Assembly (NCBI GenBank): GCA_030762935.1
Contig: CM060892.1
Location: 91,174,827 to 91,238,826, forward strand
Length of the DNA: 64,000 nt
From: Hymenopus coronatus
Taxonomy: Eukaryota > Arthropoda > Insecta > Mantodea > Hymenopodidae
Direction of reading: 5' to 3'
Shown: one piece after another, positions 6,491 to 61,775 of the stretch
Position numbering within the stretch: position 1 is the stretch's first letter
How the letters are laid out: each line of letters begins with the position of its first letter
The notes under the pieces: model-generated
Told to the model about the DNA's origin: nothing
What the model saw: only the letters and a program-made list of their open reading frames with translations
Database searches by the model: none
Position numbers and translations under genes: made by a program

Positions 6491-6491
6491 A

Positions 6492-9132: not shown

Positions 9133-9135
9133 AAA

Positions 9136-9212
9136 GCACAAATTATAATACACATTTTTTGTGTGGAGTTGACCAATTCCGAGACATTATTTGTTTCAAT
9201 CATCGTAGAGCT
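9136..9212 (+). repeat. R870 copy, continuation
   Basis: 'TACACATTTTTTGTGTGGAGTTGACC' type block and 'GAGACATTATTTGTTTCAAT' are the R870 segment that normally follows where the left part (8,301-8,707) stops, so the SINE was inserted into a pre-existing copy. The 3' end is missing. Confidence 0.7.
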
Positions 9213-10345: not shown

Positions 10346-10633
10346 TTATTTTTACTTTCTCAAGCTTATATGTACAATGCACATAGTAGATATAGAGTAT
10401 ATTTTATTCCATCCAAAAAATGCAATATCCACATTTTACCGAAATTACATGTTTTGAGGTTCCCATAATTCTAAGAAAGCAGTTTTAGAAAAAAAAAGTA
10501 AGTGTGTGCCCGTGTGTGTGTGTGTGTGTGTGTGGTGTGTGTATGTGCGGACAGCTAATGCAAAAATGAATATTGGGTTAAATATTGTTATATAACTTTA
10601 GTATCTTCCAAGGTTGCAACAGGGAGATTATCA
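10346..10633 (+). repeat. R870 copy, left part with (GT)n
   Basis: 'TTTTTACTTTCTCAAGC' start, 'CCATCCAAAAAATGCAATATC' block, then (GT)n at 10,512-10,535 in the standard internal position, and 'GCAACAGGGAGATTATCAG' where the family 1 SINE enters. Confidence 0.85.
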
Positions 10634-10848
10634 GAAGGTGGGAGTGGTTAGGCCACTCACCTAAACTGCCCGGGTTCAATCCCAAGCGACCGAATTTTTG
10701 GTGGACAAAGCAGCGCAGGGACGAGCTTTTTTCGGGTTCTCCGGTTTCCTCTGCCATTACATTCCACAGGTGCTCCATTATCATTTCATTTATCATCAGT
10801 GTCATCGCCTGCGGCGCCATTTGTAGTAAAAGTTTAACCCTAAAAGAA
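10634..10848 (+). repeat. SINE family 1 inserted in R870
   Basis: Head with B box (GGGTTCAATCCC) and the typical body and 'GCGGCGCCATTTGTAGTAAA' tail. R870 resumes after it ('AACATGGAAGTTGTTTCC'). Confidence 0.9.
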
Positions 10849-11440
10849 AGCTGTTCTTAACATGGAAGTTGTTTCCAATTTTCTATCTTTTCATAAATGG
10901 TTCTAATGATTTTTATTATAACACCATATATTAAAGATATTTACATTCCAAATAAAATGTAGGTATATCTTGATTTCCTAGGAATAGCCTCTAAAGACCA
11001 CTTCTTTCTGACGACTGTTTTTATAAATGGTAAACAGTAGGAAAAATATGAAAACTTACTATAAAAGGGGGAAAAATGTAATTTCTTTATAATACGTATT
11101 AAATGTCATGTATATTTTTGTGTAGATTTGACCGTTTCTGAGATATTATTTGTTACTTGTTTCAATTTTAAACAACTTCAACTTTTCTCAAACAGGAACT
11201 CTCTCTCCTTTCAGCTCGCTTTGGCTTTACATACCAACTTTGCTAACCAAACCGAACTTCAATTGTTTCACATAGCGACAGCTTTTGGAGTATTGACTAT
11301 GGCTAACCTAATGTATTCCGTTATTCCCCTTTGTTATAGAGAACTAACTTAGATTCTGTTAATGTTTATCTTGATTAGCTTGATAGATGTAAGAATAAGC
11401 TTAAATACGCGAAAGACATGTGAATGTAACATATCAGGTC
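10849..11440 (+). repeat. R870 copy, right part
   Basis: Continues with 'ATCTTGATTTCCTAGGAATAG', 'GAGATATTATTTGTTACTTG', 'CACATAGCGACAGCTTTT', 'TTATCTTGATTAGC' and the end 'GAAAGACATGTGAATG'. With the left part it gives a near complete copy of about 0.86 kb. Confidence 0.85.
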
Positions 11441-16281: not shown

Positions 16282-16437
16282 TTCACATTTCCAACAATCT
16301 TGACTCCACTCGTGATGCAATGAAGTCGGCTAGGTAGCGGCTTGTGTGCCAATTGTTTGGGCATGCGGTCACAATATTAAGAGATAGGACATCTTATAAA
16401 CAAAATGCAATGTAATTAACGCATGGAATTTATATCA

Positions 16438-16516
16438 AACATTTTTTTTTTATTTCTGATATATCCTTTGTTATTGGTTTTAATTCTCATATGCTTATAC
16501 TTTCTTTAAGTAATAA
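16438..16516 (+). repeat. R870 fragment
   Basis: Only the 'TCTGATATATCCTTTGTTATTGG' to 'CTTATACTTTCTTTAA' segment of R870 is recognisable. Confidence 0.5.
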
Positions 16517-16842
16517 CTCACTATAGGTTTTTTTTTTTTCATGGTCATGCAAGGAGTATGACACCTTAAAGCTATCATAAGTCATCCACTTTTTAAAAAA
16601 ATGACTATCAATTTCGCTAACTATATTCTTCTTATTTCTACTTCGAAATGTTTAAATGTATAATGAGGGTTCATCTAATTTAATAAGAAATGAAATAAAA
16701 CTGCTGTATGAATAGTTTGTATAAAATTGGGCAGAGAAAATCATGTGGAATTAGCACAACACATTTTTGGAAAAGTAATAGAAATGATTTAAATGGGATG
16801 CAATGAAATTTGTTTTTTCTCACTTGGAGTACGTTAGAATTG
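16517..16842. other. Unclassified sequence
   Basis: Nothing recognised. Confidence 0.5.
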
Positions 16843-19784: not shown

Positions 19785-20612
19785 CAATTACTTCCTCTAT
19801 CACATATGTGCAATGTACATAGTAGATAGAGAAGGTATTGCACTCCACCCAAAAATTCTATATCGATATTTTACCGAAAATACACGCTTTAAGGTTATCA
19901 AAAAAAAACACATTTTTAGAAAAAGGTCCAGTTGTGTGTGGTGTGTCTGTGGAACGAAACTACAAGTCGGTTAAATACCAAACTCGGTATAAAAGTTCAT
20001 CTTCCAGTGATACGACACGAACATTTATAGGAAAATTCCCCAAACCTCAACCATTAAAATGAAAAATTTTCGGAAGTTTTGATTTTCTGTAAAATGCTCG
20101 AATGATTTTGATTAAAATGCCGTATCTTTAAGATATTTTTATGACAAACGATATGTATATCCTATGTTTTTGTGTTTTTATCTGAATGACCCTTTTATAA
20201 CTTTTGTATAACTGAAAAAACTAATAAATCTGTTATTATATATTTCTGCATGAGATATAGTTAAACGTTTTTTAAATATTAGGTGTTATTGGTTTCAATT
20301 TTAAACACTTAAACTTTCTTAAATGGGAAGTCAAATTTTATTTCGTTTTCCTTTTGTTGGACTCATGGGCAACAAAGAGAACCGAATTTCAATTGTATCA
20401 CATAGTGACCGGCTTTTAAAGACAGTATTACTATCACTTTAGCCTAGTGCATTCCCTTATTTTGCTCCTACTTACAAAGCATTAAATAATTAGACTAACT
20501 CAGCTAATATTTATCTTGATTAGCCGATGCAGATAAAATAATATTCTTTTGTAAGAGACGTTTGTCTGCAAAACAGCTTGAGAAGTCATAATAATGCAAA
20601 ACATGAGGTTTA
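19785..20612 (+). repeat. R870 dispersed repeat, near full length
   Basis: 'TTACAATTACTTCCTCTATC', 'CACCCAAAAATTCTATATCG', a short GTGTGTG tract, 'ATACGACACGAACATTT', 'CACATAGTGACCGGCTTTTAA', 'TTATCTTGATTAGC', end 'GAGAAGTCATAATAATGC'. Confidence 0.85.
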
Positions 20613-23995: not shown

Positions 23996-24164
23996 ATCTG
24001 ATGGGCTTCATAACATGACTTTCTCTACATCTTTGTAACAAATTATTGTTAATAATCTGATTCTTCTATCCACTTCAAGCTAATAGAGATAAACACTAAC
24101 AAAACCTTAGAAATACGACACTAAGCTAAACTTACAGTAAAATGCTTTAAAATGTGGCTAATAT

Positions 24165-24328
24165 AAACTTGAAATCCTTTCTTTGCGTAGTCAGGAGTTG
24201 ACAGGTCCCCATATGAGAAAATTTTAAGCATTTTAAAACTGAAACTAATAATAAAAATATCTCGAAAATGGTCAACTCTACGAAAAAATGACCATATGAA
24301 ATAAATTGTGTGTGAACTTGGGAAGAAA
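24165..24328 (-). repeat. R870 fragment
   Basis: Middle segment only: 'GTCAGGAGTTGACAGGTCCCC', 'ATATGAGAAAATTTTAAGC', 'ATCTCGAAAATGGTCAACTC'. It lies in the same orientation and just 70 bp from the next copy. Confidence 0.75.
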
Positions 24329-24397: not shown

Positions 24398-25145
24398 AAC
24401 CTGATGTGTTCTATTCACCTGGCTTTCTCCAGCTGCTCCACAAACTTCTTACATTATTATTTTTCTTTTTACTCTATGCTAATCGAGATAAGCAATGGTA
24501 CAAATGTTCTTATTACTTGCTTTCTTCAAAAGGGAAATAAGGCCATACACTAGGCTAAAGCGGAATTCAAATCTTTTAAAAGCTATCGTCATTTGAAACA
24601 ATGAAATTCGGTTCCCCTTACCTTCCCGGAGTAAAAAAAAAAAAAAAAAAGATGAATCGGAAGTTTGACTTTCCATTTAAGAAAAAGTTAAGTAATTTAA
24701 AATTGAAACCAGTAACAATGAATTTCTCAGAAATGATTATCTCTACAGAAAAACGTGTAAGACAAATTGTGTCTTTTTATGAGATCTACACTTTTTTTTT
24801 TAAGTAGGTTATTGTCTATCTCCTACGGTTCACAAGTTATACAAAATTTATCCAGAATGAAGAGGCCATCAGAGGCTATTCCCAGAAAATTCAGGATATA
24901 CATTTCGTTTTATCACAACATTATTTTAAAACTAAGGAATTTTAATCAAAATCGTTAAAACAAATTCTCAGGATATCAGAATTTTCGAAAAAATATTATG
25001 TAATTGGGTGTGGGGGATTTTTTATTGACTTATTTTTCTCTTTTAAATCTTTGCATCGTATCCTTGGAAGTTACCAAACATAAATACTAAGTTTGGTATT
25101 TTGCCGACTTTTCGTTTTCGAGTAATCGTGTTCATAGGTACACGG

Positions 25146-25176
<31 letters not shown>

Positions 25177-25322
25177 GACCTGTTTTTTAAAAATACCTTT
25201 TTTGATACATGGGATCCTAAAACGTATACTTCCGGAGAAATCTCGGTAACTAATTTTGGGTGGAATGCAATAGCTTCCCTACCTATTATGTATATTGTAA
25301 CATACGTGCCAGAGAAAGTAAA
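24398..25322 (-). repeat. R870 full copy (first unit of tandem pair)
   Basis: Complete minus-strand copy from 'CTGATGTGTTCTATTCACC' at the left to 'CAGAGAAAGTAAAAATT' at the right. It contains an A17 run (24,634-24,650) and the standard internal dinucleotide tract as (CA)n at 25,142-25,172. Its right end abuts the 3' end of the next copy without a gap. Confidence 0.9.
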
Positions 25323-25944
25323 AATTCGGATGTGTTCCATTGACATGACTTTGTCTATCTGATCTGTAAGAAACAATTCTTACACGTATTCTTTTATGTA
25401 CATCTAGCTAATCAAGATAAACATTCCCAGAAATAACGTTATTACTTAATTATTTGTAATTAGAAGGGATCCAAGGGAACAAAATAGACTAAAGCGATAT
25501 TCAAATGTAAAATGTGTCGCTATGCGATTTTCATTGAAATTCGGATGTCTTTGATGGACAGGAGTAAAAAAAAAAAAAAAAAAAAAAAAACGGGTGTGTT
25601 ATGTTTGAAAAAGGATAACTATTTTATAATTGAGACCAATAATAACAGGGAATATCGCTCAAGGGTTAGCTCTACAAAAATGTATATTTAATATATTACA
25701 TATTTTACCGAGGTCTACATTTTTGTCCGCTTTATCTATCTCTTACGATTTATAATCTATGCAAAACTTATTTAAAATAAAGAGAATTTCAGGGGATAAT
25801 CCCAAGAAATTGAGGATATGTATTTTATTTGCAACATAAACCTTCTTAATAGGTATACATATATCATTTTAACCACAGCCTTTAGAACCATTTTTTTAGA
25901 AAACGGAAAATGTCTAAAAACTGTTCATGTAACCTGTAGTTTGG
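25323..25944 (-). repeat. R870 second tandem unit, 3' part
   Basis: Begins 'CGGATGTGTTCCATTGACATG' directly at the end of the previous unit. Includes an A-run of about 25 (25,565-25,590) at the position where the previous unit also has one, so the A-tract is a family feature. Interrupted by a SINE at 25,945. Confidence 0.85.
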
Positions 25945-26188
25945 AGTGCTTTTAGTGTTTAACATCCGCTTTTACTACAAATGGCACCGAAGGAGATGAC
26001 ATTGATGATTCATGGAATGAAGATGGAGCACCGGTGGAATGCGATGGCAGGGAAAACCGGAGAGCCCGGAGAAAACCTGTCCATGCGCCGCTTCGTCCAC
26101 CACAAATCCCACCTTCGGTCGCTTGGGATCGAATTCTGGCCGTCAAGGTGAGAAGCAAGTGGTCTAACCACTCGGCCACGACGCGTTC
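25945..26188 (-). repeat. SINE family 1 inserted in R870
   Basis: Minus-strand copy; tail 'TAGTGTTTAACATCCGC' left, head with A box (TGGCCGAGTGG on the minus strand) right. Flanks 'AGTTTGGAGT' (25,930s) and 'AGTTTGAGGT' (about 26,189-26,198) look like a diverged target-site duplication. Confidence 0.9.
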
Positions 26189-26467
26189 AGTTTGAGGTTG
26201 AGGATTTTTCTGAAAAAAATCGCACTGTTAGAGGATACTAAATGTAAATACCAAGTTTAGTATTTAATCAACATTCATTTTCTAGTTATACATTTCACAG
26301 CCATCCAAAAGTACTCACGCGTGCACACACACAAGCCAAATCCTTTGGTTTTATTTAAAGTTTTCAATAGACGTATTTTCAGTGAAATCTCGGTATCCAA
26401 TTTTTGGGTAGAATACAATACCTTCTCTACCCGAGGAATGTAGATTCTACATACTGCTATAGAAAGT
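26189..26467 (-). repeat. R870 second tandem unit, 5' part
   Basis: Continuation after the SINE, with 'GGTAGAATACAATACCTTCTC' and the terminal 'GAAAGTAAATAGG'. With 25,323-25,944 it makes one full unit. Confidence 0.85.
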
Positions 26468-26749
26468 AAATAGGAAAGAAACTCTTGGAAGGATTTGAAA
26501 CCTTTAACTGTCCTCCATTAGTCCGTGTTTTAGGCATAAGAAGAATGGTTTAGAAGATTTGGATATAACAATACAGTAAACTAAATCGACAGTGAGGTGC
26601 TTAAAAACAGGTGGGTATGTGATGGCATTGACACTCCATTGTTATAGTTTTATGAAAAAATAAGCAAACAAAAAATAATCTTCCACTTAAAAATATTTTA
26701 GGTACCCATTTGATAAAAAAACTAACAAAAATACCTTGCAAATGGATAG

Positions 26750-27538
26750 CACTACAAAAATTGATGCGCTACAATTACATGACTTTATCTAACTACATAT
26801 TTCTTTGTAAAACAAATGAATAAGAGAATACACTAGTCTAAAACGACAGTCAAATCTTTTAAAAGCCGGTCGCGGTATCGTACGATTTACTCTCTTTACT
26901 AGGAGCAACAAAAAAACGAATAACGACATCCCATTTGAAGATATTATTAATATTTAAAATTGAAACCATTAATAACTCCACTAAAAATATATATGACAAA
27001 ATTGTGCTTTAATGAGATCCACATTTTTTGAGTTGTAAGATTTTGCCTATCTCTTACGGTTTACCGGTTATATGAAAGTCTTCCAGAAGAATAGAGTTGC
27101 AGAGGCTGTTCTCTGAAAATTCAAGATATTCGAGACATTTCGTTCTTTTTGTATTGACCGGTATAAAAAGCAGAAAAAAAAACGATTGAAAACTCTCTTT
27201 GAGAAAGGTGTAAGAACTGAGAAATCTATACAAATAACATGGAACATCTCCGAAATGGTTAACTGTACAAAAAATATGTTGGACATACATTTTTGTACAG
27301 TAAGAGTTTATGTCTAACGGCTTACCGGTTATTCTTTCAGAATTTAGAGGGCTTTAGAGGCCTCCTGTAAGTTTCAAGATATGGAGTTTATTTTCCATGT
27401 AAATATCTTTAGTATGTACCATTTTTCAGAAAATCGAACATTTCAGAAAGTTCCATTAAATGGTGGCAGATTTACCTGAAGATTTTCGTGTCGCGTTCTT
27501 GGAAGACAAAGTTCACATTTGAATTAAAATGGCAAGCG
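26750..27538 (-). repeat. R870 copy, 5' end missing
   Basis: From 'TTACATGACTTTATCTAAC' through 'TCTTACGGTTTACCGGTTAT' to 'TTTTCGTGTCGCG' and 'TTGGAAGAC'. The (GT)n and start blocks are absent. Confidence 0.8.
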
Positions 27539-27954
27539 TTGCAGTTAAGGTGATATATCTGTGAAATTTTAACATTTTTGAAAAACTAATAAATTAATTT
27601 GTTTCACAATAACATAGCTTGAACTCTAAACTTTAAGCAAATATATTGTTTTTCGCATTTGGTGCACTTTATTTACCAATTACTTGAAGCTACAGTTAGG
27701 TAGGCGCACAATGCTTAACGGATACTCTCAACTTTACCCTTTAGTTTGTGGCAACCGGTTTTACAACACTTTTCCATACTCAAAATATTCCACACGATGC
27801 AATGTTTCATTAATTATACTGCCTTCTAAAATCACATTAAAGAAAATGATTATATTACGCTTTTAAAACATGTTTTAATTTTGATAATTAAATTATTATA
27901 TTTTGATAAATCAAGGTTTTTGAAAACTATAAAAAGTAACACTTTTTATCCACC
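27539..27954. other. Unclassified sequence
   Basis: Nothing recognised. Confidence 0.5.
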
Positions 27955-27959
27955 AATTA

Positions 27960-28592
27960 CAGCTAATATACTACTTAGTTCCTTGTAAGTAGGAAGGAAT
28001 AAGGAACTACACTAGGCTAAAGCGATTGTCAAATCTTTCAAAAGCTGGTTGCTATGTTAATGAAATTAGTTTCTTTGCATGGCCAGGGGTTGATAAATTC
28101 CCCTATGAGGAATATCTTGGAAATGGAAACTTAGGATTTTTTTTATTTAAACAAGATCTTTATATCATAGTTTTTTCTATCTCTTACGGTTTACTAGTTA
28201 TGCAAAAATCATCTGAAATATAGAGCTCTATTCATAGAAAATTCAAAATATGCGTTTTATTTTTCATGTAAATATCTCTAATATAGAGTATTTTAATCAA
28301 AATATTTAGAGGCATTTTTGAGAAAATTAAATTTTTGGATTTTTTTAATGAAAAGGGGAGTTTGCGATTTTGGAATTTTCTTCAAAACCTTCATATTTCA
28401 TCCACGGAAGATATTAAACTTATATATCAAGTTTGGTATTTTACCGACTTTACTTACACATGGATTTCTTCGATTTTTTTTATTCAGGAAACACTATTTT
28501 TAGATTTAGGGGACCTTAAAACGCATATTTAGAGTGAAATTCCGGTATAAATTATTGTGTGGTATACAATATCTTCTCTACTACCCATGGCA
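27960..28592 (-). repeat. R870 copy, 3' end missing
   Basis: Runs from 'CCTTGTAAGTAGGAAGG' and 'AGCGATTGTCAAATCTTTC' to 'GTGGTATACAATATCTTCTC'. The dinucleotide tract is lost. Confidence 0.8.
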
Positions 28593-29645: not shown

Positions 29646-29804
29646 ACATTAAATTGTGTTATTTAAGTGATTAAACAAAGTAGTTGCGATGTAATACATT
29701 TATCCATAATACTATAATTATTACAGATGCAGTGGATATTGTATTTATGTCAGATTCTATCAAATTTACTGCATCTTCTGTCGTCTCTTATTCATTGATG
29801 TATT

Positions 29805-29910
29805 ACTTTCTTTATGGCGTATGCATAATGTACATAATAATTAGAGAAAATATTGTACTCCACCCAAGGAATTTGATAGCGAGATTTCACCGGAAGTACA
29901 TATTTTGAGA
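29805..29910 (+). repeat. R870 copy, left part
   Basis: 'GTATTACTTTCTTTATGG' start, 'CCACCCAAGGAATTTGATAG' and 'ATTTCACCGGAAGTACATATT', then broken by about 115 bp of unrelated sequence. Confidence 0.8.
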
Positions 29911-30025
29911 ATATGTGGATGATTTGATGTAAAGGGTATGGGCACTATTGTATATAAACATGTAATGAGAATTGTAGTTCTATAATTTCAAAGGATTTTT
30001 AGTTTACGTTTGGTTGATATAAAGA

Positions 30026-30712
30026 CATTTGTTTGTGTGTATCTGTTTGCAGTATAACTTAGAGACCAACATTTATTAAATATTTAAGTTTACTGTCTCT
30101 CAAGGATCCGACATGAAGATTTTCAAGAAAATATCCCCACCCCAAACTAATCTTTAATGGAAAATGTACCAAAGCTTTGATTTTCTCAAAAATGCCTCAA
30201 ACGTTTTTGATCAAAATACCGTATATTTAAGATGTTTACGTGATAAATAGAAAATGTTTTTTTTGTAATTGAAGTCTTTCTTTTGCTTAATTGGCAAGCG
30301 GCAAGAGATACAAAAAACTTACTACACAAAAATGTATATCGCGTCAAAACACATAATTTATGCCCTATATATTGTTATATTTTTGAGCTAACCATTTTCA
30401 AAATATTCATTGCTATTGTTTTCAATTTTAAAGCACTAATACGTTTCTCAAACAGGGAGTCTTCCTTGTTGCTTTTGTTTTATTCCTAGTCATGCAAAGA
30501 AGGATATTCAGTGACAATCGTATGGCGACAGTTTTTAATGCATTTGACTATTGCCTTAGTTCTCTTCTACTTATAAGGAACTATGTAATAAAATCGTTCT
30601 ATTAATGTTTATATTTATTGGCACGAAGTAGAAAAAATAATTATCTTGTGTAAGAACTTTGTTAGCAGAGAAGGTAGAGAAAATCATGTGGATCTAACAC
30701 ATCAGATGTTTT
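30026..30712 (+). repeat. R870 copy, right part
   Basis: Resumes at the GT-rich tract ('TTTGTGTGTATCTG'), then 'GATCCGACATGAAGATTTTC', 'TTTTTGATCAAAATACC' and the end 'AGAAAATCATGTGGATC'. Confidence 0.85.
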
Positions 30713-31257: not shown

Positions 31258-31915
31258 CAGTAAAACCCCATAATTACGATCTTCAAGGGACTATGGCTAA
31301 ACGTACAATAATCGGAATTTTGATACAATTTAATAGACAATACCATATAATAAATATTTCTGAATAATCGGATAAATTACAGTGCAAAATGAACAAGAGA
31401 TTATTTCTTATGAAAAATCTTTAATTGTTGATTTTCGTGTACTCGTACTGCAAAGTATTACGATAGTTATAAAGAGTAGAACTTGAATTAACTTAAGTAT
31501 AATTCCACTTTTAATAAAAATTACTTGTGCACCTTTCATTATACACGTCACAGAATTCAAAGAAAGACGAAAAGAATAAAACAGACAGCAAACCTTTTGA
31601 GAGCATAAATTCCTTTTAAGAAAAGGTGTTGCTATCGCCCAATTCTGCCGACCGTACGGGTTTTCAGGTAAAGCGCTTGAGCCCTCGACCGCTGAGTACA
31701 GTCTATTTTCTCATCTACTTTTAAAATATTTCCCAATTTCGTAATTTTTTAACAATATTTGTGCTCTTTTTTCCATAAAAAGCGCTAATAACAGAAATTG
31801 GAAACGTTAAAGCAAATAAAATCGTGCTAATATGGAAAGTCCAGGGACTTGACTATTGAGCGTAATATACGGGATGACGTTATAATGGAGAGCATAATCA
31901 CGGGATTTTACAGTG
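31258..31915. mobile_element. pogo/Tigger-like MITE
   Basis: About 658 bp with imperfect terminal inverted repeats: the left end reads CAGTAAAACCCCATAATTACG and the right end, reverse-complemented, CTGTAAAATCCCGTGATTATG (about 18 of 25 positions equal). The left end abuts a TA. CAGT(A)AAACC-type ends are typical of pogo/Tigger elements of the Tc1/mariner superfamily. No transposase frame remains, so it is non-autonomous. It sits inside an R870 copy. Confidence 0.75.
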
Positions 31916-32123
31916 TGTACAGGTGCGTCTGTGTTTATGTCTATAAACAGCCTAACTCAAAAACAAAAGCTCCCATAAATATTAATATTTGTATTTAAAT
32001 TAAGAATTTCCAAGAAAATATACCAATTATAACTATGTTTTTCGTGGCAAATTTTTGAAAACTGTTTTGTTTTAAATGGCATTAGTGATTGTATATAAAA
32101 TACACTTTATTTTAGATACATAC
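31916..32123 (+). repeat. R870 copy, middle part after MITE
   Basis: Resumes at the internal GT tract ('GTGCGTCTGTGTTTATG') and includes 'CCTAACTCAAAAACAAAAG' and 'GCAAATTTTTGAAAA'. Confidence 0.65.
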
Positions 32124-32385
32124 ATAGACGGTCCCGTAGTTCAGTAAGTAGGGCACTTGCTTGCTGTGCAAGGGATCCGGGTGGGGATATTTCTCTAGGC
32201 AGGCTTATTCCCAAGTCTCCCCAGAGTCCTGAAAGTTTGAATAGGAGTGATAGAAACCCAATGACAACAGAGCACGGTTTAAAAGCATTACATATGGGCA
32301 AAATGTTGCAAAAGGAAATGCCGCTGAAATGACCGTGCAGATAAAATGAGGTTTAAATAGTACCCCCTCACCCCCAAAGAAAACC
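32124..32385 (+). repeat. tRNA-derived SINE in R870
   Basis: 'GTCCCGTAGTTCAGTAAG' has an A-box-like head; the B box is degenerate ('GGATCCGGGTGGGG'). GC-rich body 'CCAAGTCTCCCCAGAGTCC', ending near 'CCCTCACCCCCAAAG'. R870 resumes right after. Confidence 0.6.
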
Positions 32386-32910
32386 GACAAGATATATAAA
32401 ATGCGTATCTTGAATTTTCTACGAATAGATTGTGAAGTCATTCGGAAGAAATATATTATATAAGTATATAACTGGTAAACGTTAAGATGTAGACAAAACA
32501 CACTAAATAAATAACTTTATAATATTTAACTTATTTTAAATAACTATTGAGATTATTTATTTCCGATTTTTCTGTTAATATATACTAGGATTTTATTTTT
32601 TACTTTTTTTTTAATATTTAAACTGCTATTGCTATTCAGGTATTTCTCGCTTTAGCATTAACAGAATATGGAATTTCAAACTCAGCATACACTGATCCGC
32701 TTTTAAACACATTACTAGGCATTCGGCTTTGTCTATCCTACGTGTAACCAGAACGAAATATGTAACAAAACTATCTAGACAAAGGTTATGTGGGTTAACA
32801 TGATGCAAATAAAAAATAAGTTAATGCAAGAAAATACAGTATAAAGATAAGCAATAGTGGGCAGAGAAAGTCATGTGAATGTAACAAATTCATTTAATAC
32901 TATAAATTCT
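32386..32910 (+). repeat. R870 copy, right part after SINE
   Basis: 'ATGCGTATCTTGAATTTTC', 'TATATAACTGGTAAACG', end 'GCAGAGAAAGTCATGTGAATG' type block at about 32,858-32,882. Confidence 0.8.
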
Positions 32911-34948: not shown

Positions 34949-35762
34949 TCTAATAATAAAAATCTGATGCGTTCCTTCACATGACTTTCTCTACAGCTTG
35001 GTAACTAATTGTTGTTAAAAGGCTTATTTTACTATCTATTTCATGCAATCAAGATAAACGTTAGCAGAAATAGTCTTAATACCTGCTTCCCTGCAAGTAG
35101 AAGGCTAAAGTGGTAGTCAAATCTTTTAAAAGCTGGTTATCATGTGGTTGAAAGCAATTTGTTTGCATTGCCAAGAATGGACAAGTTCCCGTATGTGAAA
35201 AGTTTAAATATTTTAAAACTGAAACCAATGACAAGGAAAATCTCATAAATGGTCTCCACGAGAAAACGTATGTAACATAAACTGTGTGTTTTAACAAGAT
35301 TCATATTTTTTGTGCATTACATTTTTGTTCATTTCTTACGGTTTACCAGTTATGCAAAATTCAGTAAAATTCATCCAGAATAATGAGGTCTTCAGAGGAT
35401 GTTCCTTGAAAACTCAAGATATGAATTTTATTTGTCACTATATACATTATTTCAATCAAAAATTTTAGAAATACTTTTGAGAAAATTAACATTTTGAATT
35501 ATTTTCCATGTAAAGCGTAGTTTTGGGTGGGTCGATTTTCTTTAAAACCTTCGTGACGCATCCTTGGAAGACACAGAACTTAAATACCGAGTTTACGTTT
35601 CGAGTTATCGTGTTTCACACGGACCTTTTTTTAAAAATGTTTTCTTTTGGATATAGAGGATCCTACAACGTGTGTTTGGAGTGAAATCTTGGTATCGAAA
35701 CTTTGGGTGGAGTATAATACCTCTCTTTCTACGTACCATGTACTATGTAGAGAACGTAAAAA
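34949..35762 (-). repeat. R870 copy inserted in LINE
   Basis: Near full-length copy from 'AAAAATCTGATGCGTTCC' to 'GAGAACGTAAAAATG'. LINE RT sequence is present on both sides, and the two LINE parts are consecutive in the protein order, so this copy arrived by insertion. Confidence 0.9.
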
Positions 35763-35767: not shown

Positions 35768-36120
35768 TCAATACATGACCTACTTTTTCTAAAACCATTC
35801 TGTTCTTCCCCCAAATCGGCTCTCTATTTTATATATGACAATTTCTTCATCAAAATCGCTGAATATACTGTGTTTAAGAGAGAAATTCCTCTATAATTCA
35901 CACATTCATTTGTATTTTATTTTTTGAATAAATGTATATTTTGGCGTTACACCAATCTCAGATCTTTCCTTCACTCCATATTAGATTGGAGAGCTGTAAT
36001 AATCTATTCTTTAGTTTATTTGCTCCATATTTCCATAATTCCATATTAATGTTATCACATCCTGGGGATATTCTATTTTTTGCTGTTCTCCAAACTTGGG
36101 TTAAATTTGCATGCCCAGGA
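35768..36120 (-). pseudogene. LINE RT remnant, 5' part
   Basis: Minus-strand translation shows 'SPGCDNINMELWKYGANKL', 'LLQLSNLIWSEGKI', then 'NYRGISLLNTVYSAILMKK' and 'GEEQNGFRKSRSCID', the standard N-terminal RT blocks of non-LTR elements. The protein order continues at 34,948 after the R870 insertion. Confidence 0.85.
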
Positions 36121-36139
36121 GTATACAATAGATATGAAG

Positions 36140-36709
36140 CGAAGAACGAGTATCCGTTTGAGCAAAGTATACGTATTTTAAAATTGAAAAAAATAACTCC
36201 ACAAAAATGGATATGAAAAATTGTGTGCTTTAATGACATCTAAAATTTATTGTATATTATTTACCTATTTCTTACGGTTTACCAGGTATGTAAAAGTTCT
36301 CCATAATGAAGAGGGTTTCAAAGGCTAATTCCAAGAAATTCAAGATATACATTTTATTTTCCATGTAAAAGTCTTCAAGATATGACTTTTTAATCAAAAA
36401 GACCATTATTTCCTTTATTTAAAGGAAATCACAATTTTCGAAAGAAAGTTCCATATAGAGGATACTTTCGGTAGGTTGAAGAGAATTTCTTGAAAATCTT
36501 CATCTCGCATATTTGACAGATGCTGAAGTTAAGTACCAAGTTTGATATTTAATAAGCATTTAGAGGACTTTTCGTTTTTGTGTCATGATTTTCACACATA
36601 CAAACACGCGCAGCGCGGATCGTTTTCTAAAAATACTTTTTTGGACTCCAGGACATCAAAACATTGTTTCCGGTGAAATCTCGATATCGAATTTTTGGTT
36701 GTTAACCCT
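36140..36709 (-). repeat. R870 copy, 3' truncated
   Basis: 'TATCCGTTTGAGCAAAG', 'CTTACGGTTTACCAGGTATG', 'TCTTCATCTCGCATATT' and 'GGTGAAATCTCGATATCG', ending at the start block. Confidence 0.8.
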
Positions 36710-36862
36710 ATGTACATAGTTTCGTGGAGAAAAGGACAATAGTATTAGACCTTCTTAATGATATTTACTTTTAGCAAATCTATATTGAGTAATCACATTG
36801 TAGTATTCTAGGTACAAATTGTCGTCTGAAAAATTTAACTAGTGAACTTTTCTGTTCGGCAG

Positions 36863-37454: not shown

Positions 37455-38303
37455 AAATGTCCGATGTACTCCATTCACATAAATTTTCGTGTATGTTCTG
37501 CAAACAAATTATTCTTACAAAAGATCGTTCTTATATCTACATAATTCTAATCATAATAAACTAAAAGTAATTCCCTTATTATCTATTTCCTTATAAATAC
37601 AAGGGAAATAAACGAATTCAGTAGACTAAAGCGATACGCAAATCCTTTAAAAGATGTCGCTATGTGATTAGCATTGACATTCAGTTTTCCTTTCATAGCC
37701 AAGTGTAAAAAAGGGGGACATGAAACGGGTGAGGTTTTTCCGTTTGTAAAAAGCTTTAAACATTTTAAAATTGAGACCCATAGTGGGGAATATATTTGAA
37801 ATGGTTTGCTTAAAAAAATCTGGATATGACACACGTTGTTTGATTTAATGAGATCTACGTTTTTGTATTATAGGGTTTTTCTGTCTCTTGCGGTTTATCA
37901 GATATGCAAACATCATTCAGAAACTATGCCCAAAAATTTCAGGATATAAACTTTATTTACCATGGTAATATACAGCATGTTATTCAAAGTCGTGAGAGAC
38001 ATGTTTATAAAATCGCACATTTCGAAAAATGTTCCATATAAAGGGTAGTTTGGGACAGGGAAATCATCGTGATGCATCCGTGAAAGATACTAAGCTAAAA
38101 TAAAAAGCTTTCTATTTAAGAGATTTTAGCTATACTGTCAACTGACATACACGCACATATTTTTCTAAAGATGTTTTTTTTTTTTTTATTACAGTGTCCT
38201 CAAAATATGTATTTCCAGAGAAATCTCGCCATCGGAGTTTTAGATGGAATACAATAGGTTCTCTACCTGCTATGCACCTTTACATACTGTTAGAGAAAAT
38301 AGA
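37455..38303 (-). repeat. R870 full copy (tandem pair)
   Basis: From 'TCCGATGTACTCCATTCAC' to 'TTAGAGAAAATAGAAA'. The right end abuts the 3' end of another unit at 38,304. Confidence 0.85.
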
Positions 38304-38470
38304 AATATTTCATGTGTTCCATTCACTTGACTTTCTCTACCTGTTCTACAAACTATTCTTAAGAAAGATAATTTTTCCACCTTTTCATGTTAATAGAGAT
38401 AAGCACTATTAGAAACGTTATGATTATTTGCCTCCTTATAAGTAAAAGGGAAATGAGAGCTAAAGCGGTA
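38304..38470 (-). repeat. R870 3' end, second tandem unit
   Basis: 'TTTCATGTGTTCCATTCACTTG', 'ACTTTCTCTACC' and 'AGTAAAAGGGAAATGAGAGC', then cut off at 'GCTAAAGCGGTAGTGAAG'. Confidence 0.8.
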
Positions 38471-38700
38471 GTGAAGCTGTTCAGTCAGAGGATGTGTCCT
38501 GGAAGCGTTACGAGCGCCTCGCAGGGCGAAAAGAGTGATTAGACTGCTGTCTCTGAGCATACATCCATACTCCTCTGGGTAACTGCACTCCTAGAAAGGT
38601 CTGCTACATCCGCTCTTCAAGCGTTACATGCTATGGGAAATATTACCTACTAAAGGATATACGCCGTGCTTGGGTGAGGCAATAAAATAGTTCTATTAAG
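38471..38700. other. Unclassified GC-richer insert
   Basis: A segment (about 38,480-38,640) between two R870 pieces, clearly GC-richer than them, with no tRNA-like boxes and no match elsewhere that I can see. Confidence 0.4.
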
Positions 38701-38737: not shown

Positions 38738-39595
38738 AAAACATCTGATGTGTTCCATTCAAACGACTTTCTCTAATATATGTAACAAATATTGTTAAAA
38801 CGCTTATTATGCTACTTCATAATAATCGAGATAAACATTAGCAGAGATTGTCCTTATTTCTTGGTTCCTTGTAAGTAGAAGGGAAAATAATCTAATGTGT
38901 TCTATTCGCCTCATGTCCACTGACTGTTCGATACACAAACATTTTATTCAAAATATTAATCTGTTATCTAAATCAAGGTAAAAGTAAACAGAATTAGTCT
39001 TATTACCAGCTTCCTTGTAAGTAGAAGAGCCATAACAAAATACACAGGCTAAAGCGATAGTCTCGTCCTTTAAAAGCCGGTCGCTATGTGAAACAATTGA
39101 AATTCCAATCTCTTGTCTTGTCAGGAGTAAACAAACGAGAAGAAAGATGCCTTTCCGTTTGAGAAAAGTTTAAGTGGCTAAAATTGAATCCGGAACACCT
39201 CGAAAACGGTTAACTTTATAAAACATGTATATGACATAAATTGTGAATTTTAATTAGATCTACATTATTTGTGTAGTAATTGTTTGTATATCTCTTACGG
39301 TTTGATAGTTCTACAAAACTCGTCCTAAATGGAGAGGCCTTCAGAGGCTATTCCAAGAAAATTCAAGACATACATTTTGTTAGTCATAAAAATATCTTGA
39401 GCATAAGGTATTTTAATCAAATTCGTTTGAGCCATTTTTTTGAGAAAATAAACATTTTCGAAAAATGTTCCATGTAAAACGTATTATGAGATGGGGGATT
39501 TGCTTGATAATCTTCGTGTCGCATCCTTGGAACATACCAAACGTAAATACCAAGTTTGGTAATTAACGCTCGTTTCGTTTTTGAGCTATGGTTTA
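38738..39595 (-). repeat. R870 copy with doubled 3' end
   Basis: The 3'-terminal 145 bp occur twice in a row in the same orientation (38,738-38,890 and 38,892-39,038, each ending in 'CTTCCTTGTAAGTAGAAG' type sequence). The rest of the unit follows to 'CGTTTTTGAGCTATGG', where a SINE enters. Confidence 0.8.
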
Positions 39596-39839
39596 GGGTC
39601 GCGCCGTGGCCGAGTGGTTAGACCACTCGCCTCTCACCTAGACGGCCGGGGTTCGATCCCAAGCGACCGCATGTGAGATTTTTGGTGGACAAAGCTGCAC
39701 TGGGGCAGGTTTTCTCTGGGTATTCCGTTTTCCCCCGCCATCGCATTCCACCGGTGCTCCATCATCATTCATGTATCATCAGTGTCACCGCCTGCGGTGT
39801 CATAAGTAGTTAAAGCGGGCGTTAAACACTACCAAAAAA
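39596..39839 (+). repeat. SINE family 1, best preserved copy
   Basis: A box TGGCCGAGTGG at 39,607-39,617 and B box GGTTCGATCC at 39,650-39,659, both matching RNA polymerase III consensus. It ends in a short A-run. Flanked by a near-perfect target duplication: TTTTGAGCTATGG on the left and TTTGAGCATGG on the right. Inserted in the opposite orientation to the R870 copy around it. Confidence 0.95.
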
Positions 39840-40022
39840 ATTTGAGCATGGTGCCTAAATACATACACACAGATAAACATGGACTTTTTTCTAGAAATAT
39901 TTCTTTTGATCCAGGGGGATCCAAAACGTGTATTTCGGGTGAAATCTCAGTATCTAATTTTAGGTGTATTACCATGCCTGCTCTATACACTATATACATA
40001 GTACGCGTAGAGAAAGTAAAAA
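39840..40022 (-). repeat. R870 copy, 5' part after SINE
   Basis: Continues 'ATCCAAAACGTGTATTTCGG', 'GGTGAAATCTCAGTATC' and ends 'GTAGAGAAAGTAAAAAAA'. Confidence 0.85.
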
Positions 40023-41720: not shown

Positions 41721-42900
41721 CTTTACTTGTTTTCTTCTTCAAGTTCTTGGCAACTGTGCCACGTAAAGCCTGGGAGAGTTGTGTTTTAATATTAACATCC
41801 TTATGTGTAAGTAATATCGCAACCTGGATATTTAAAATGGCTAGCGTGTTATAAAATGGTATTATTTATTATTGTTTTACTTCAAATAGATGTTTTCCTC
41901 TGAAATCCATTTCTTTTGACTGCATTCTTGAACCTATATGAGCATCTAAACTAATCCTGTATTAATATAACGCATTTAAAGTGTTAATAATTCCTCAGAA
42001 AACGTAATAGCAATTTATTTAAATGTGTTGAAGTCATTTTGATGGGTAATAACGTTGAGATCGCGGGGTCATATAACAGTTGGTTATGTTATAACTAATT
42101 CAATAAGATCATGAGAGGTAAACATTGGTACATTCGAGTTTCCGTATTGAGTCAGAACACCTCAAAATATAACTCCAACAAGCAGTTTCGTTTTTCCCAC
42201 ATCTGAAAATGTGAGTTTGGAGAACTGTGAACAATAATAAGCACCAAGAGACAAACCCATCTTCTCTTCCCTGCTGCCATCATTCCTGTTTTTGTTTCAC
42301 ATCTGACGCAGCAGTCAGATTGCGAAGACCTAAAATTCCAAACGCATTTCAAAAGGAAATTTGAGTATGAGCGAGTTAAGCTATCTTTCTTCAAACAAGG
42401 AGAAACCTTACAAGACCAGATACTGACACAGAATTACTAGTTCAAAATGATAATACTTTTAGACAGATGGTGCAAACTTTATCATTTCAATATGCTTATA
42501 TCAGCTGGCATTGAAATTGCGTCTCATCTTGTGTATCAAAATATGAACCACGTCAGAGAACGTATTAATTGTGCAACCATTGCTTTTTCATTCCAACAAC
42601 GGATTCTTCATGAAAATATACTTAATACAATCCAGGTTAATAAAGTAAAATGTTCTGCATATTTGAAATAACGTTCTGTACCATCTATCACTTTTAATGT
42701 ATATATTTGTCTGCAAAATACTATTTTTCCATTTATTTTATTTTATTTGAAACAAACGTTTACATCATTACACATTTCGTTATAGATACAAAGAAAACGG
42801 CGATAGTTAAAATATTAAGTCATGGACGCCATATGCTGGGCTTTATATTCTAGTCTCTTTCCATGTAAAAACAATTGAAAATCGATAGGACTTTAAAGTG
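41721..42900. other. Unclassified sequence
   Basis: Nothing recognised; a slightly GC-richer patch at 42,130-42,370 has no supported frame. Confidence 0.5.
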
Positions 42901-43751: not shown

Positions 43752-44640
43752 TTTATTCTTAATTTCTCTACACGAACTATGTACAAAGTGTATTGCACCC
43801 AAAAATTCGATACCACGTTTTCAGAGAGTATATATGTTTTGAGACCCCCTGAAACCAAAAAGAGCTTATCTGGAAAAATATCCGTGTGTATGCCTGTCAG
43901 GCTATCTGCCAGTGTGTGTGCAGGCTTGTATGTTTGTGTCTGTGGCATAGCTCAAAATACGAAAAGTCTAATGAATATCAAACCTGGTATTCAAGTTTAA
44001 TAACTACCAATAATGCGACACGAGGATTTTCAAGAAAATCCCCCACCCTCAAATACCCATTCCTTGGAAAAGTTTTCGAAAATGGTGATTTTCTCAAAAA
44101 TAGCTCTTAAAGATTTTGATTAAAATATCGTATATTAAAGATATTTACACGACAAATATAATGCAATATCTTGATATTTTGGGAATAGTCTTAAAGACAT
44201 CTTTACTTACATGAATTTTTTGGAATTTTGCATAGCTTGTAAACTGTAACAGGCAGATAAACACTTATTTCACCAAAAATGTAGACCTCGATAAAACACA
44301 CACTATAGGATTTATACATTCTTTAATTGGTGTTCATCGTTTTTGAGATATCCCTTGTTATTAGTTTCAGCTTTAAAATACTTATACTTTTCTCATACGG
44401 GAATTTGTCAACTCCTGTACATACAAAGGAACTTCATTCACATAGCAACCAACTTTTGACTGTCATTTTAGCCTATACTATTCCCTTATTTCCCTTCTTC
44501 TTACACGGAAGCAAGTAGTAAGACCATTTCTGCTAATTTTTTCTCCATTAGCATGAATTAAATATGAGAAGAATAAGCTTTTTAACAATTTGTTCCAGAG
44601 ATACAGAGAAAGTCATGTGAATGACGCACATCAGATTTTT
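43752..44640 (+). repeat. R870 dispersed repeat, full length
   Basis: One of the best copies: 'CTTAATTTCTCTACACG', 'CACCCAAAAATTCGATACCACG', GTGTGTGTG tract (43,913-43,921), 'TGCGACACGAGGATTTTC', 'TTTTGATTAAAATATCG', 'ATCTTGATATTTTGGG', 'TTTTGAGATATCCCTTG', end 'GAGAAAGTCATGTGAATG' then CACATCAGATTTTT. Useful for a consensus. Confidence 0.95.
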
Positions 44641-45139: not shown

Positions 45140-45290
45140 AAATTTCAACTCAACCACGTAGCGACGAGCTCTTAAATTATTTGCCAAACGGTTTAGCTGT
45201 TATGATTCTTGTACTTACAAGGAAATATGTATAAAAACCACTTCTGTTAGTATTTAGACTAGTATGAAGTGGGTAGGATAATAGACTTTT
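45140..45290 (+). repeat. R870 fragment
   Basis: 'AAATTTCAACTCAACCACG', 'TAGCGACGAGCTCTTAAAT', 'CTTACAAGGAAATATG' and 'CACTTCTGTTAGTATTTAG' follow the R870 3' order but are strongly diverged. Confidence 0.55.
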
Positions 45291-45509
45291 GTAAGAATTT
45301 TTGTTGAATATTAGGCAGAAAAATTTATTATGGATATATGATAACTTATTCAGTGATTTCTCGCGATGTCATGGAAGGAGTACGGCAACTGGTTTTTAAA
45401 TAACAACCTAATTATCTAGGGTAACTATTTTTGTAAAGGTTTATCTCCTTTAATGTCCCTAGCTAAAAAAAAATAAGTTCCTTAATTTATATTGTATCTA
45501 GAACTATAT

Positions 45510-46165
45510 ACATGTTACATTCACATGACTTTCTCTACATTAATGCAACAAATTATTGTTAAAAAGTTTGTCCTCTATTTACTTCATGTTAATCAAGAAA
45601 AAATTAGCAGAAATAATTATACTACATGCTTCCTTGTAAGTAGAAGCCAAATAAGGAGTACCATAGGCTAAAGTGATAGTCAAAAGCTGGCTGCTATGTG
45701 ACTGAAGCTCCTTTGTTTGTATGGACAGGAGTTGACAGATTACTGTATGAGAAAAGTATAGTTTTTCACTGCTGAAACCCAAAAAAAAAGAAGAGGAAGA
45801 AATATCTCAAAAACGGTCAACTCCACGAAAAAAATTATACAACATAAATTGTGTGTTTTAACGTGCTCTACATTTTTTGTGTTGTAAGTTTTTGTCCATC
45901 TCTTATGGTTTATCAGTTATGCAAAATTCTGTAAAATTCATATAGAATAAAGTAGGTCATATCCCTGGAAGATATGACACTTAAATACCAATTTTGATAT
46001 TTTACCGATTTTTCGTTTTTCAGTTATCGTGTTCACAGACACATGGACACAAACAGACTTTTTTCTGAAAATGCTTTTTTTTTTGGATACAGGATACATA
46101 TATTTCCGGTAAAATCTCGGTATTGAATATTTGGGTGTACATAGTACGTATTGAGAAAGTAAAAA
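45510..46165 (-). repeat. R870 copy with internal deletion
   Basis: Intact 3' half ('TTACATTCACATGACTTTC' to 'AAAATTCATATAGAATAAAG'), then a jump directly to 'CCCTGGAAGATATGACAC', so roughly 190 bp of the middle are missing. Ends 'TTGAGAAAGTAAAAAAG'. Confidence 0.85.
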
Positions 46166-58632: not shown

Positions 58633-59490
58633 AGGTTACCTTCATAACAGTTGTGGTAAACTGATGATAAGACTATCCAACTCTGGTTGTTTACTTAAAC
58701 ATGAATATAATTTGTGACTCATAGTTAGCACTACATGTACATGAATAAAAATCACATAAATATTAGCAAATAAAAGGTGGGATTTAAATGTTAGACTTCA
58801 AGCACCAAATATAGTTGTATTCCATGTCTGCTATAACAGATATAACAAAAGTTAGAGGATTGAATACAATTCGTGCACATACAGTCAGTAAAATATGCCT
58901 AACACGCAGGTCCTCAAGCAATGAATGAAGTAAATTTTACAATTACAGCATAAACGGAAAGTGAATAATAAAACAGGATCTCTGACAAAGTGTATTATGC
59001 AGTGATGAGAGAGAAAATACATTTACTTATGTGCAACATATGAAATCAGAAAAAAAAAAAAGAAGGCAGAATGCTTTTAAAACGTAATTTTATATCTCGT
59101 ACCAGAGATTATAGTTTCGCTGATTTGTTTTTAATTATTTTGGCACCGTTTGAATACTTTAAACAATCAAAACAATGATAGAAATATATTCATTATATAG
59201 TATGGACCAATTGATTGATGAAATCATGTTGAGTTATAATAATTGGCCCCCACAGCGGGTTTGCCCTAAGCATGCATTTTTCGAGCATAAGTTTATGGGA
59301 GTTTGCTTCTGTGACAAAGTGGATAAATGTGCATTTAGAATGGATAGTAGAGTCCAGAAACCGGAACACTGAACATAGTAATATGATGTGGAAGATTTTA
59401 CAAGTACATACATCTGTAAACATTTGTAATTTAGATCAACCACAAAATGCATAATTGTTTTTCAAACTTCTCCCTTATTTTGTTTATGTC
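58633..59490. other. Unclassified AT-rich sequence
   Basis: Nothing recognised. Confidence 0.5.
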
Positions 59491-59494
59491 ATAT

Positions 59495-59935
59495 AGAATG
59501 TGCAGATCTTGTGAGACTATTCCCAGAAAATTTAACATAAATATACTTCATTTCTCATCAATTACTTTAAAAATATGACATTTTAATAAAAACACTAGTA
59601 ATTGTTTAGAAAATAATTTTTTTATAAAATTTTCCATACAAGTATAAAAGGTAGTTGAAGTGCGGGGATTTTCCTGAAAATTATCGTGTCGCATATAAAG
59701 ATGTTGAACATAATTGCCAAGTTGAGTATTTAACGGGCATTGCGTTGTGGGTTATGCTACTTACACACACATTCACGCACACACACGCACACGCACACCT
59801 TTTTCTAAAAATATATTTTTTTTTGTCTGGACTCAGGGGTCCCAAAACGTATTTCCGAAGAGATCTTGAGTTTAATACAATAACTTCTCTACCAACTATG
59901 TACATTTTACATATATGAACGAGAAAGTAGACGGA
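59495..59935 (-). repeat. R870 copy, 5' half
   Basis: 'GACTATTCCCAGAAAATTT', 'TTATCGTGTCGCATATAAAG', (CA)n-like tract at 59,762-59,798 and the end 'CTATGTACATTTTACATATATG' with GAGAAAGTAGA. The 3' half is missing. Confidence 0.85.
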
Positions 59936-60950
59936 ATGTAATAAAATGCAACATTAAGAGGGCTTTAGTTCAGCTTTTTCCAATTATTGTGGAGCAGAAT
60001 TTCTATACCAATAATAAAAACAAAATAAAATAAAAAAGAGAAACAACTGAACTATAGTTTTCTTACTGTATAGTTTTATTACGTTTTATTTTATATATAA
60101 GCATCCAGTTTTTGCGTAGTTAAATTTCTATATGCCAAAAAGTACCTATATATGGCAGCAGCCAGAAAAAAAATTAAAATATAAATTGTAGTTTGAATTT
60201 GTGTGAGAAAATAAGTATTCGGAATGAGACGAAGAGAAAACTCGTGCAAAATTGCCAAGATGTCACCATAAATAATATTACGCGCGAAGTTTACGTGGTC
60301 GGAAGTATTGCTGAAGTAATATGTAAAGGCACATATTAAAAAGAAATAATGTATTTTAAAGTGTATCTTATTAAATAATCTAGTTTTATGTATTTATATG
60401 TTACAAAGTAACAAATGAAATTGGTAATTTAAAATATAAGGAAAAAGCATTGTTGATGCCCCAAAGCATCAAGAGACATGTACAAGAAGGAGAGACATTT
60501 TTTCTGTAACATCACTTTCGTCGTCGGGTGAGGACGCAATCCAAGTGATGTGATATATTCAAATATGTACAATTAATATTTTGTGTTATTAAGCCATCGG
60601 AAACGATGAGCTTCAAACTGCATCATTAAATTGAATAAATGCGTATAGTTATTTCTGTTAAAATGCGGGTTATTGTTTAAAACATAAGTCCATAATTCCA
60701 GACTCCGAGAGTAAGCATAAAGAAAAAGAAGAGATTATCGCTCGACTCCTCAATCAAGACCGAGAAACATTTTTAATTATTATATAAAACTACGCGAACG
60801 GAATTTATTTTAAAGTAATATCCGGTAATAACAGTTTATTATTATTGCGAAGGGCTCGTATTTAAATAGAAAAGCAAATTCATAATATACGCTTATACCA
60901 CTTAGCATTTTTATTCTGTCTTTTGTTTCTTTAATTTATATCAGTACATC
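59936..60950. other. Unclassified sequence with small hairpin
   Basis: TTGATGC (60,453-60,459) and GCATCAA (60,466-60,472) form a short perfect stem with a 6-nt loop. Nothing else recognised. Confidence 0.45.
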
Positions 60951-60954
60951 TCAT

Positions 60955-61775
60955 CTGTTGCATTTACATGACTTTATCAATACTAAAACAAACTGTTCTT
61001 ACAGAAGCAGATATTTCTAAGTACTTCATGAATATTCGTACAAACATTTTCAGAAATGGTTTTATTACATAGTTCTTTGTAGATAGGTGAATACATAGGT
61101 TAAAGCGATAGTCAAATATTTCAAGTGCCAATCGCTATGTGGTGCTATTTGACATCCCGTTGTTTTCTTGAAGAGAGAAATATGCATAATATTTCCCATT
61201 TGACAAAAATATTAACATTTTTAAATTGAATCAAATACCTGAAATACTTGGGAAATATTTAACCCACAAAAAGTATATATACACACACCTCCGCAAGCAT
61301 TTGACAGATTATGTTTAAATGAGATTTCCAATTGCAATAAGATGTTCTCTATTATGATTTTCCAGTTAGTCCAGAATGAAGAGGACTTCCAAGACTACTC
61401 CCAGGAAATTCAGAATATATATTTCATTGAACATTATAAAACCTCTGATTGTAATAAGAATCCGTTAGAGCCATTTTTGAAAGAAATAACAATTTTAGGA
61501 AAATGTTCCATGTAAGGCGTAGTTTGGTGGCGTGATTTTCTTGAAACTTTTTGTGTCGTTTTTGGAAACTGCTGAACTTAAACATAAAGTTTAGTATTTA
61601 ATTGACATTCTTTAGCTATGCTGTTCACACACATGTGCACGAATTTCTAAAATGCATTTTTATTGAGGAGATTTCAAAAATACTCCGGTGAAAACTCCAC
61701 ATCGTGTTTTTTGGTAGAATACAGTACTTTTTCTATCTATTATGCACATAATTTTTTGTGCAGAAATTAAAAATG
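60955..61775 (-). repeat. R870 dispersed repeat, near full length
   Basis: From 'CATCTGTTGCATTTACATG' and 'AGCGATAGTCAAATATTTC' to 'TTTTTGGTAGAATACAGTAC' and 'GTGCAGAAATTAAAAA'. The A-rich stretch and dinucleotide tract are short. Confidence 0.85.

Follow-up and report, generated by a model that had tools for sequence, protein, structure and literature searches.

R870, an abundant 0.87-kb repeat of Hymenopus coronatus with most of the defining features of a HINE

The window analysed here, a 64,000-base stretch of the Hymenopus coronatus genome taken as a whole, contains many copies of a 0.87-kb repeat, R870, and raises the question of what kind of element this is, what mobilised it and how much of the genome it occupies. 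A first-pass annotation of the sequence had concluded that R870 fits no usual class cleanly. The classes considered here include Helentrons and HINEs as defined by Thomas, Vadnagara and Pritham (2014; PMC4067079).

The R870 unit in the window

An iterated profile (E<=1e-3) assigned 26.9% of the window to R870 (17,213/64,000 bases; 38 fragments on both strands) and gave 0 matches in the reversed window, bearing out the earlier estimate of about a quarter. A profile trained without any window copy assigned 26.4% (37 matches). BLAST of 43752-44640 against the window returned 41 rows including the query itself, 39 of the others at 65-92% identity on both strands and the last a single exact 20-base match. 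A simple chaining rule joined the 38 fragments into 30 copies; the first-pass annotation was right about both strands and had counted about 24. Apart from the reference copy described below, the copies are:

1437..1537, +, fragment (model 43-143)
3113..3857, +, copy (model 1-770)
5321..6498, -, copy in 3 pieces (model 134-869)
5613..5711, +, fragment (model 290-391)
6495..7334, +, full copy lying within an older R870 of opposite orientation
8300..9444, +, copy in 2 pieces (model 2-868)
10350..11438, +, copy in 2 pieces (model 1-868)
16378..16761, +, fragment (model 464-866)
19788..20608, +, full copy
23997..24314, -, fragment (model 512-868)
24400..25323, -, full copy, head-to-tail behind copy 25326..26470
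25326..26470, -, copy in 2 pieces, tandem partner of 24400..25323
26562..26773, -, fragment (model 523-726)
26775..27144, -, fragment (model 380-770)
27135..27549, -, fragment (model 196-663)
27969..28589, -, copy (model 28-754)
29803..30707, +, full copy
31913..32889, +, copy in 2 pieces (model 140-864)
34962..35761, -, full copy inside a LINE reverse transcriptase, with empty site
36107..36733, -, copy (model 8-655)
37460..38303, -, full copy, head-to-tail behind fragment 38310..38475
38310..38475, -, 3' fragment, tandem partner of 37460..38303
38743..38886, -, 3' fragment (model 723-869)
38890..40021, -, copy in 2 pieces (model 1-869)
42650..42882, -, fragment (model 626-864)
45140..45328, +, fragment (model 658-849)
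45513..46164, -, copy in 2 pieces (model 1-861)
59488..59931, -, fragment (model 2-442)
60948..61772, -, full copy

A TCC-rich low-complexity tract lies at window 7423-7745, shortly behind one of the copies.

R870 is a discrete unit of 856-869 model positions, with match starts and ends piling up at both termini. Among 215 matches from the window and fetched loci, the left end falls at model position 1 in 46 and at positions 1-4 in 84, the right end falls at the last model position in 47 and no more than 3 from it in 81, and the logos of these 84 five-prime and 81 three-prime ends are sharp. The longest stop-free stretch in the six frames of the consensus is 79 aa, and the window yielded no tRNA and no Rfam match at the gathering threshold; the lack of a stable ORF and of tRNA-like boxes had been recognised correctly. 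R870 is a mobile family whose ends are fixed; it lacks coding capacity and is non-autonomous, as had been suspected, and as an interspersed repeat with defined boundaries and no coding potential it agrees with the definition of a HINE.

The left end reads A-TTTTT-ACTTTCTCTAC, with ACTTTCTCTAC at model 5-15. About 22 bases beyond it lies TAGAGAAGG, which pairs with its first arm. Of 200 shuffles of the 51-base left end, 198 fold less well than the real sequence (z -3.5). The interior follows in the order conserved block, GT microsatellite (near 140-172) and ~650 bases without a long ORF, and the right end is GTAGAGAAAGT-C-ATGTG-N7-CACAT-CAGA, then Ts. The 3' palindrome ATGTG-N7-CACAT is present in the consensus, and each of its pairs forms in 81-97% of copies; its folding does not stand out from that of shuffled sequence (equalled by 50/200 and 41/200 shuffles), and covariation in the R870 hairpins did not exceed expectation for any helix. 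The inverted motif noticed earlier at or near both termini is real, and it is placed asymmetrically: ACTTTCTCTAC starts 4-5 bases from the left end and GTAGAGAAAGT lies 23 bases inside the right end. Asymmetric subterminal inverted repeats of ~11-15 bases are expected of a HINE. The ends of canonical Helitrons, 5' TC and 3' CTRR, are absent.

The stretch 43,752-44,640, proposed as a reference copy, is indeed a copy of R870, with its start set about 5 bases too early; the true span is approximately 43757-44636, followed by a T-run to 44640. Its features are:

43757..44636, +, R870 reference copy (model 3-869 at 43759-44636)
43761..43771, +, 5' subterminal inverted repeat, AATTTCTCTAC (consensus ACTTTCTCTAC)
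43884..43945, +, GT-rich tract, degenerate, at the position of the microsatellite
44603..44613, +, 3' subterminal inverted repeat, ACAGAGAAAGT (consensus GTAGAGAAAGT)
44615..44631, +, 3' palindrome ATGTG-N7-CACAT (weak fold)
44636..44640, +, right-junction T-run, attributed to the target

Insertion sites

Target duplications were sought in 49 two-ended copies, whose flanks showed no excess of matches at k=2-8 over permuted flanks. The first-pass annotation had expected a consensus with both fixed ends and target duplications; the former were found and the latter were not. The left T-run is exactly five bases in 25 copies, longer in 4 and shorter in 20, and the right T-run is five in 10, longer in 13 and shorter in 26 (Fisher p = 0.002 for runs of five or more). 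Because the left runs are mostly exactly five while the right runs vary, we read R870 as inserting between A and TTTTT, with the left Ts presumably carried by the element and the right Ts contributed by the target. An A precedes the left T-run in 34/49 copies, modestly above the window background (282/519 T-runs). Alternatively, the T-runs at both ends could be a TTTTT duplication, and the one empty site fits either. A T-rich target without target site duplication is typical of HINEs and was found for R870. Four of the 49 copies sit inside another R870; by eye, three of these fit the T-run target and one is without 7 model positions.

The empty site comes from a LINE reverse-transcriptase remnant with relatives elsewhere in the genome (window 34762-36239, minus strand), which is split by the R870 copy 35761-34962. 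When the flanks are joined, the frame EEQNGFRKSRSCIDVIFIIRHILEKRS runs across the junction, and the joined sequence matches 38 other places at 66-79% (best 40 of 71 candidates, including the two flanks in the window itself), with 37 of the 38 extending at least 15 bases beyond the junction on both sides and one only 8 on the left. Stop-free frames of at least 75 aa in the window were inspected by eye, and the Pfam scan, which covered the joined LINE piece alone, gave RVT_1 at E=0.035, below the cut-off. This site supports insertion of R870 without detectable target duplication.

Helentron relatives and the class of R870

A search of the genome gave 112 Helitron_like_N matches. Variants of FQMRGSPHEHMFFWLKDAP, a motif that we take to be Helentron-like, occur in eight of ten loci fetched from the weaker matches (L066-L069, L071-L073, L075), and RGSPHEH is exact in two of these eight; the other two loci, L070 and L074, resemble canonical-looking Helitrons. 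Locus B (C11:16.9 Mb) contains, in broken frames, DUF6570, a Rep piece, a PIF1 helicase (E=2.9e-26) and an Exo_endo_phos_2 endonuclease (E=1.7e-8), in that order. The Rep piece alone scored 18.8 bits, under the Pfam cut-off, and locus B scored 50.6 bits, over it, in the genome-wide search. The domain order suggests that Rep, helicase and endonuclease were fused into one protein, whose frame is now broken, and all Helentron coding copies read have stops or frameshifts. The combination of Rep, PIF1-like helicase and endonuclease domain that distinguishes Helentrons is found in this family. Judging from these domains, the genome hosts a resident, decayed Helentron family that would have encoded a Helitron-type Rep, a PIF1 helicase and an endonuclease, and that R870 far outnumbers.

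Six loci fetched from the stronger Helitron_like_N matches (L059-L064) belong to two canonical-looking Helitron families; where they align, copies of one family are 81-90% identical. They were considered as partners of R870 and rejected on their left boundaries, which differ from that of R870.

The right end of locus B, GCAGAGAAAGTTATGTGAATGTAGAACATCAGATTTTT, is 33/38 identical to that of R870, and no R870 match was found upstream of it, back to 1439. The locus B 3' region has at least 43 matches in the genome (best 40 of 708 candidates scored). Among the matches listed, 14 besides the query stop at query 630-634, 2 stop at 643, 9 stop elsewhere and 17 match the right flank, 6 of which start at 596-598 and thus include the R870-type end too. 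An R870-type right end is present in 16/16 fetched Helentron copies, which had been selected for matches extending to the right end at query 630-643 (15 at >=30/38 bases, one with a short insertion), and the sequence beyond it differs among the 16. The alignments indicate that the right end is firmly common to R870 and the Helentron.

The right flank of Helentron B (L081 4394-4530, query 596-731) is itself a repeat, a hint that one kind of target was used more than once. At four other loci (C13:93.588, C7:65.940, C15:3.860 and C15:3.876 Mb) a Helentron piece ends at query 593-613 with an R870 left end directly after it, perhaps from one insertion later co-amplified as a composite element.

On the left side, R870 is joined to the Helentron body at locus A (R870 3-167), C2:73.3 Mb (1-384), C21:293.6 Mb (1-380) and C17:12.5 Mb with L076 (4 to ~591; flanks in common, counted once). 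The alignment of C2:73.3 with C21:293.6 continues without a break from the terminus through to the body (666 bases at 77%), and their flanks differ. Three of the nine Helentron loci fetched for the left side have the R870 left terminus (C2:73.3, C21:293.6 and C17:12.5; L124, L125 and L126). C21:262.4 Mb is interrupted, and the fetched stretch breaks off there at R870 position 7, C10:26.4 Mb is cut at position 165, C13:137.0 Mb has only R870 715-850, C16:118.5 Mb has an inverted R870, and the stretches fetched at L121 and L123 contain no R870 left terminus. Nearly the whole of R870 precedes the body in locus B, C10:26.4 and, in part, C13:137.0, so that in locus B and C10:26.4 adjacency or fusion is not distinguishable from common ancestry. 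The left end appears to be common to R870 and the Helentron in several lineages (four independent loci) and obscured in others. HINEs have ends in common with a Helentron of the same genome, as was found here with Helentron copies that are decayed.

In one Helentron lineage, nearly the whole of R870, right end included, stands before the body (L078 562-1439 with L081; L131 with L119), possibly through read-through of the right-end signal or through fusion; outside this lineage no Helentron counterpart of R870 ~620-815 was found. Positions 562-724 of locus B were considered as a Helentron left end and rejected, as 562-1439 reads as a whole R870 copy.

R870 is very probably a HINE, that is, a non-autonomous rolling-circle transposon mobilised in trans by the Helentron family of the same genome, because it is a discrete unit with fixed ends, inserts at T-runs without detectable duplication, has an empty site and has its right end, in a similar version, and in four independent loci its left terminus in common with a Helentron. 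The view that it fits no usual class is therefore not upheld: R870 has most of the defining HINE features, and the genome has a Helentron family with the same right end and, in several lineages, the same left end as well. The first-pass annotation had also raised the possibility that the copies are parts of a longer autonomous element, which is half right, in that a longer coding relative exists but what was amplified is the 0.87-kb R870 itself, which has two ends of its own.

It is very unlikely that R870 is a MITE, the remnant of a cut-and-paste DNA transposon with terminal inverted repeats. An 11-base inverted motif does occur near both ends, and DNA transposons are reported as abundant in H. 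coronatus in the available text of PMC10415354, but R870 does not combine inverted repeats at the very ends with a target duplication: its repeats lie at unequal distances from the ends (4-5 bases on the left vs 23 on the right), duplications were not detected in the 49 copies, and its ends belong to a Rep/helicase element. The genome's canonical Helitrons, whose canonical-looking families have the better scoring Rep domains, would be highly improbable drivers of R870 in place of the Helentron family, given that their left boundaries (TATATATATAAAAA..) differ, R870 has neither their 5' nor their 3' terminal motif, and the Helentron copies have the R870 right end.

Spread as a satellite or by segmental duplication would account for same-strand clusters in the window and for the abutting head-to-tail pairs (3 observed vs 0.15 expected); that these pairs are so few counts against a HINE. 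Such a spread, with no transposition, is scarcely credible for a repeat that is dispersed (25/40 blind places on 21 sampled contigs), whose copies have fixed ends and different flanks, and which has inserted into a LINE with a known empty site. The idea of a SINE or a truncated LINE tail has nothing in its favour beyond the size and abundance of R870 and is extremely unlikely: tRNA and Rfam matches were not found in the window, target duplication was not detected, coverage along the model is even in the samples with no 5' truncation bias, and the ends are those of a rolling-circle element.

If R870 is a HINE, Rep would nick at its left T5-ACTTTC end and the helicase would peel off one strand, with the subterminal repeats and hairpins marking start and stop, and the single strand would be replicated into A^TTTTT targets. 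R870 may have originated from a Helentron by loss of the coding middle, with several hundred bases on the left and the right end retained; its expansion to roughly 0.8 million copies would then have taken place in an old burst that appears to be over.

Known systems resemble R870 in many of these features, as far as the available text of the cited papers goes. The HINEs of Metaseiulus occidentalis and other arthropods are likewise non-coding, have in some copies a microsatellite, and use T-rich targets without target duplication, and they have a 3' palindrome, of which the R870 counterpart folds weakly; arthropod HINEs also outnumber their Rep/helicase/endonuclease partner (PMC4067079). In the mite the subterminal inverted repeats also lie near the left end (2-4 bases), whereas the distance from the 3' repeat to the right end is about 38-60 bases vs 23 in R870, the R870 repeats are not themselves palindromic, and the estimated genome share of R870 is much larger (PMC4067079). 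DINE-1 / INE-1 of Drosophila has a short inverted repeat with its first arm inside the left subterminal repeat, a microsatellite, a 3' stem loop (weak in R870) and a TT preference (PMC4067079); this likeness is one of description, not of core sequence, and R870 takes up a far greater fraction of a genome that is itself far larger. The Pacific oyster element Cg_HINE is also Helentron-type, non-autonomous and found at T-rich sites without duplication, but has satellite-like central arrays where R870 has one GT microsatellite (PMC7492417). Canonical Helitrons belong to the same rolling-circle Rep/helicase class, also with A/T insertion and no target duplication, and differ in having 5' TC and 3' CTRR ends, which R870 does not, while the partner of R870 has an endonuclease domain (PMC4067079).

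Searches of literature text with the R870 terminal strings gave, among the papers listed, no transposon paper by title and no description of the sequence, viral contigs had no exact match to the right end or the left block, and a genome-contig scan had none to an interior motif. The mechanism and class of R870 are known, and the family is new as far as the literature searches reach.

Abundance and significance

The assembly has 3,126,739,099 bases, with 98.3% in contigs C1-C21, a longest contig of 545.7 Mb and an N50 of 159,052,695; the available text on the published H. coronatus HiFi assembly gives 3,127,590,514 bases, 20+X chromosomes, 98.27% anchored and a scaffold N50 of 159,059,693 (PMC12908712). 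The mitochondrial COI is that of a mantis, with Statilia maculata (94%) and Prohierodula (93%) the closest among the named matches listed. R870 was sampled with a profile trained on the window alone at 40 places on 21 contigs (78,000 bases), set by round coordinates before looking. It was present in 25 of them and made up 20,923 bases, or 26.8% (bootstrap 95% 18.5-35.4); the second blind sample alone, which was in no profile's training, gave 29.7% (15.8-44.6). Counts of 21 five-prime ends and 19 three-prime ends over the 78 kb correspond to 0.76-0.84 million copies genome-wide. Extrapolated from 78 kb, the samples suggest that R870 makes up roughly a quarter of the 3.1-Gb genome. With a mean distance to the consensus of 16.4% over 31 fragments of the first sample and 23.6% over 33 of the window, the burst looks old.

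At four places on C21, which is presumed to be the X (L058, L115-L117), R870 covered 0/5,700 bases vs 20,923/72,300 elsewhere, yet C21 holds 6/30 of the loci taken from the best matches to the consensus, and depletion there is only possible. Separately, about 100 or more mitochondrial COX1 matches (96 scored of 2101 candidates) were found on C253, C263, C321 and chromosomes, e.g. C21:460-468 Mb, C5:0.3-1.2 Mb and C16:123.2-123.5 Mb. Many of those listed are near full length on chromosome contigs, some with TGA as the sole stop, and they appear to be a heavy, partly recent load of nuclear mitochondrial DNA.

The available texts cite Helitron contents of 6% in a bat and 6.62% in a butterfly (PMC4067079), a Helitron/HINE share of 4.23% in the silkworm, and helitrons that together form 7-20% of grasshopper repeatomes (PMC7486953). 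For H. coronatus they describe an ancient aggregate Helitron burst with Tc1 as the largest component (PMC12908712), and transposable elements at 42.36%, DNA transposons at 19.39% and TcMar-Tc1 as the largest subclass (PMC10415354); PMC10600911 and PMC3789558 were also drawn on in part. We lean slightly towards the view that R870, at about a quarter of the 3.1-Gb genome, exceeds the Helitron and HINE shares in the literature surveyed and is the main single cause of the genome's size.

The surprise is the abundance of R870, not its kind. Most reports put rolling-circle elements at a minor to moderate fraction of the genome. If true, the share of R870 exceeds that of Alu elements, which make up ~10% of the human genome, and one family near 0.8 Gb would show rolling-circle copying to be capable of generating most of a gigabase of DNA. 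A correction to repeat annotation in Mantodea is likely to follow. R870 provides a very large natural set of termini from which the requirements of Helentron ends could be learned, and is a candidate cause of one mantis's genome size that may be compared across sister species.
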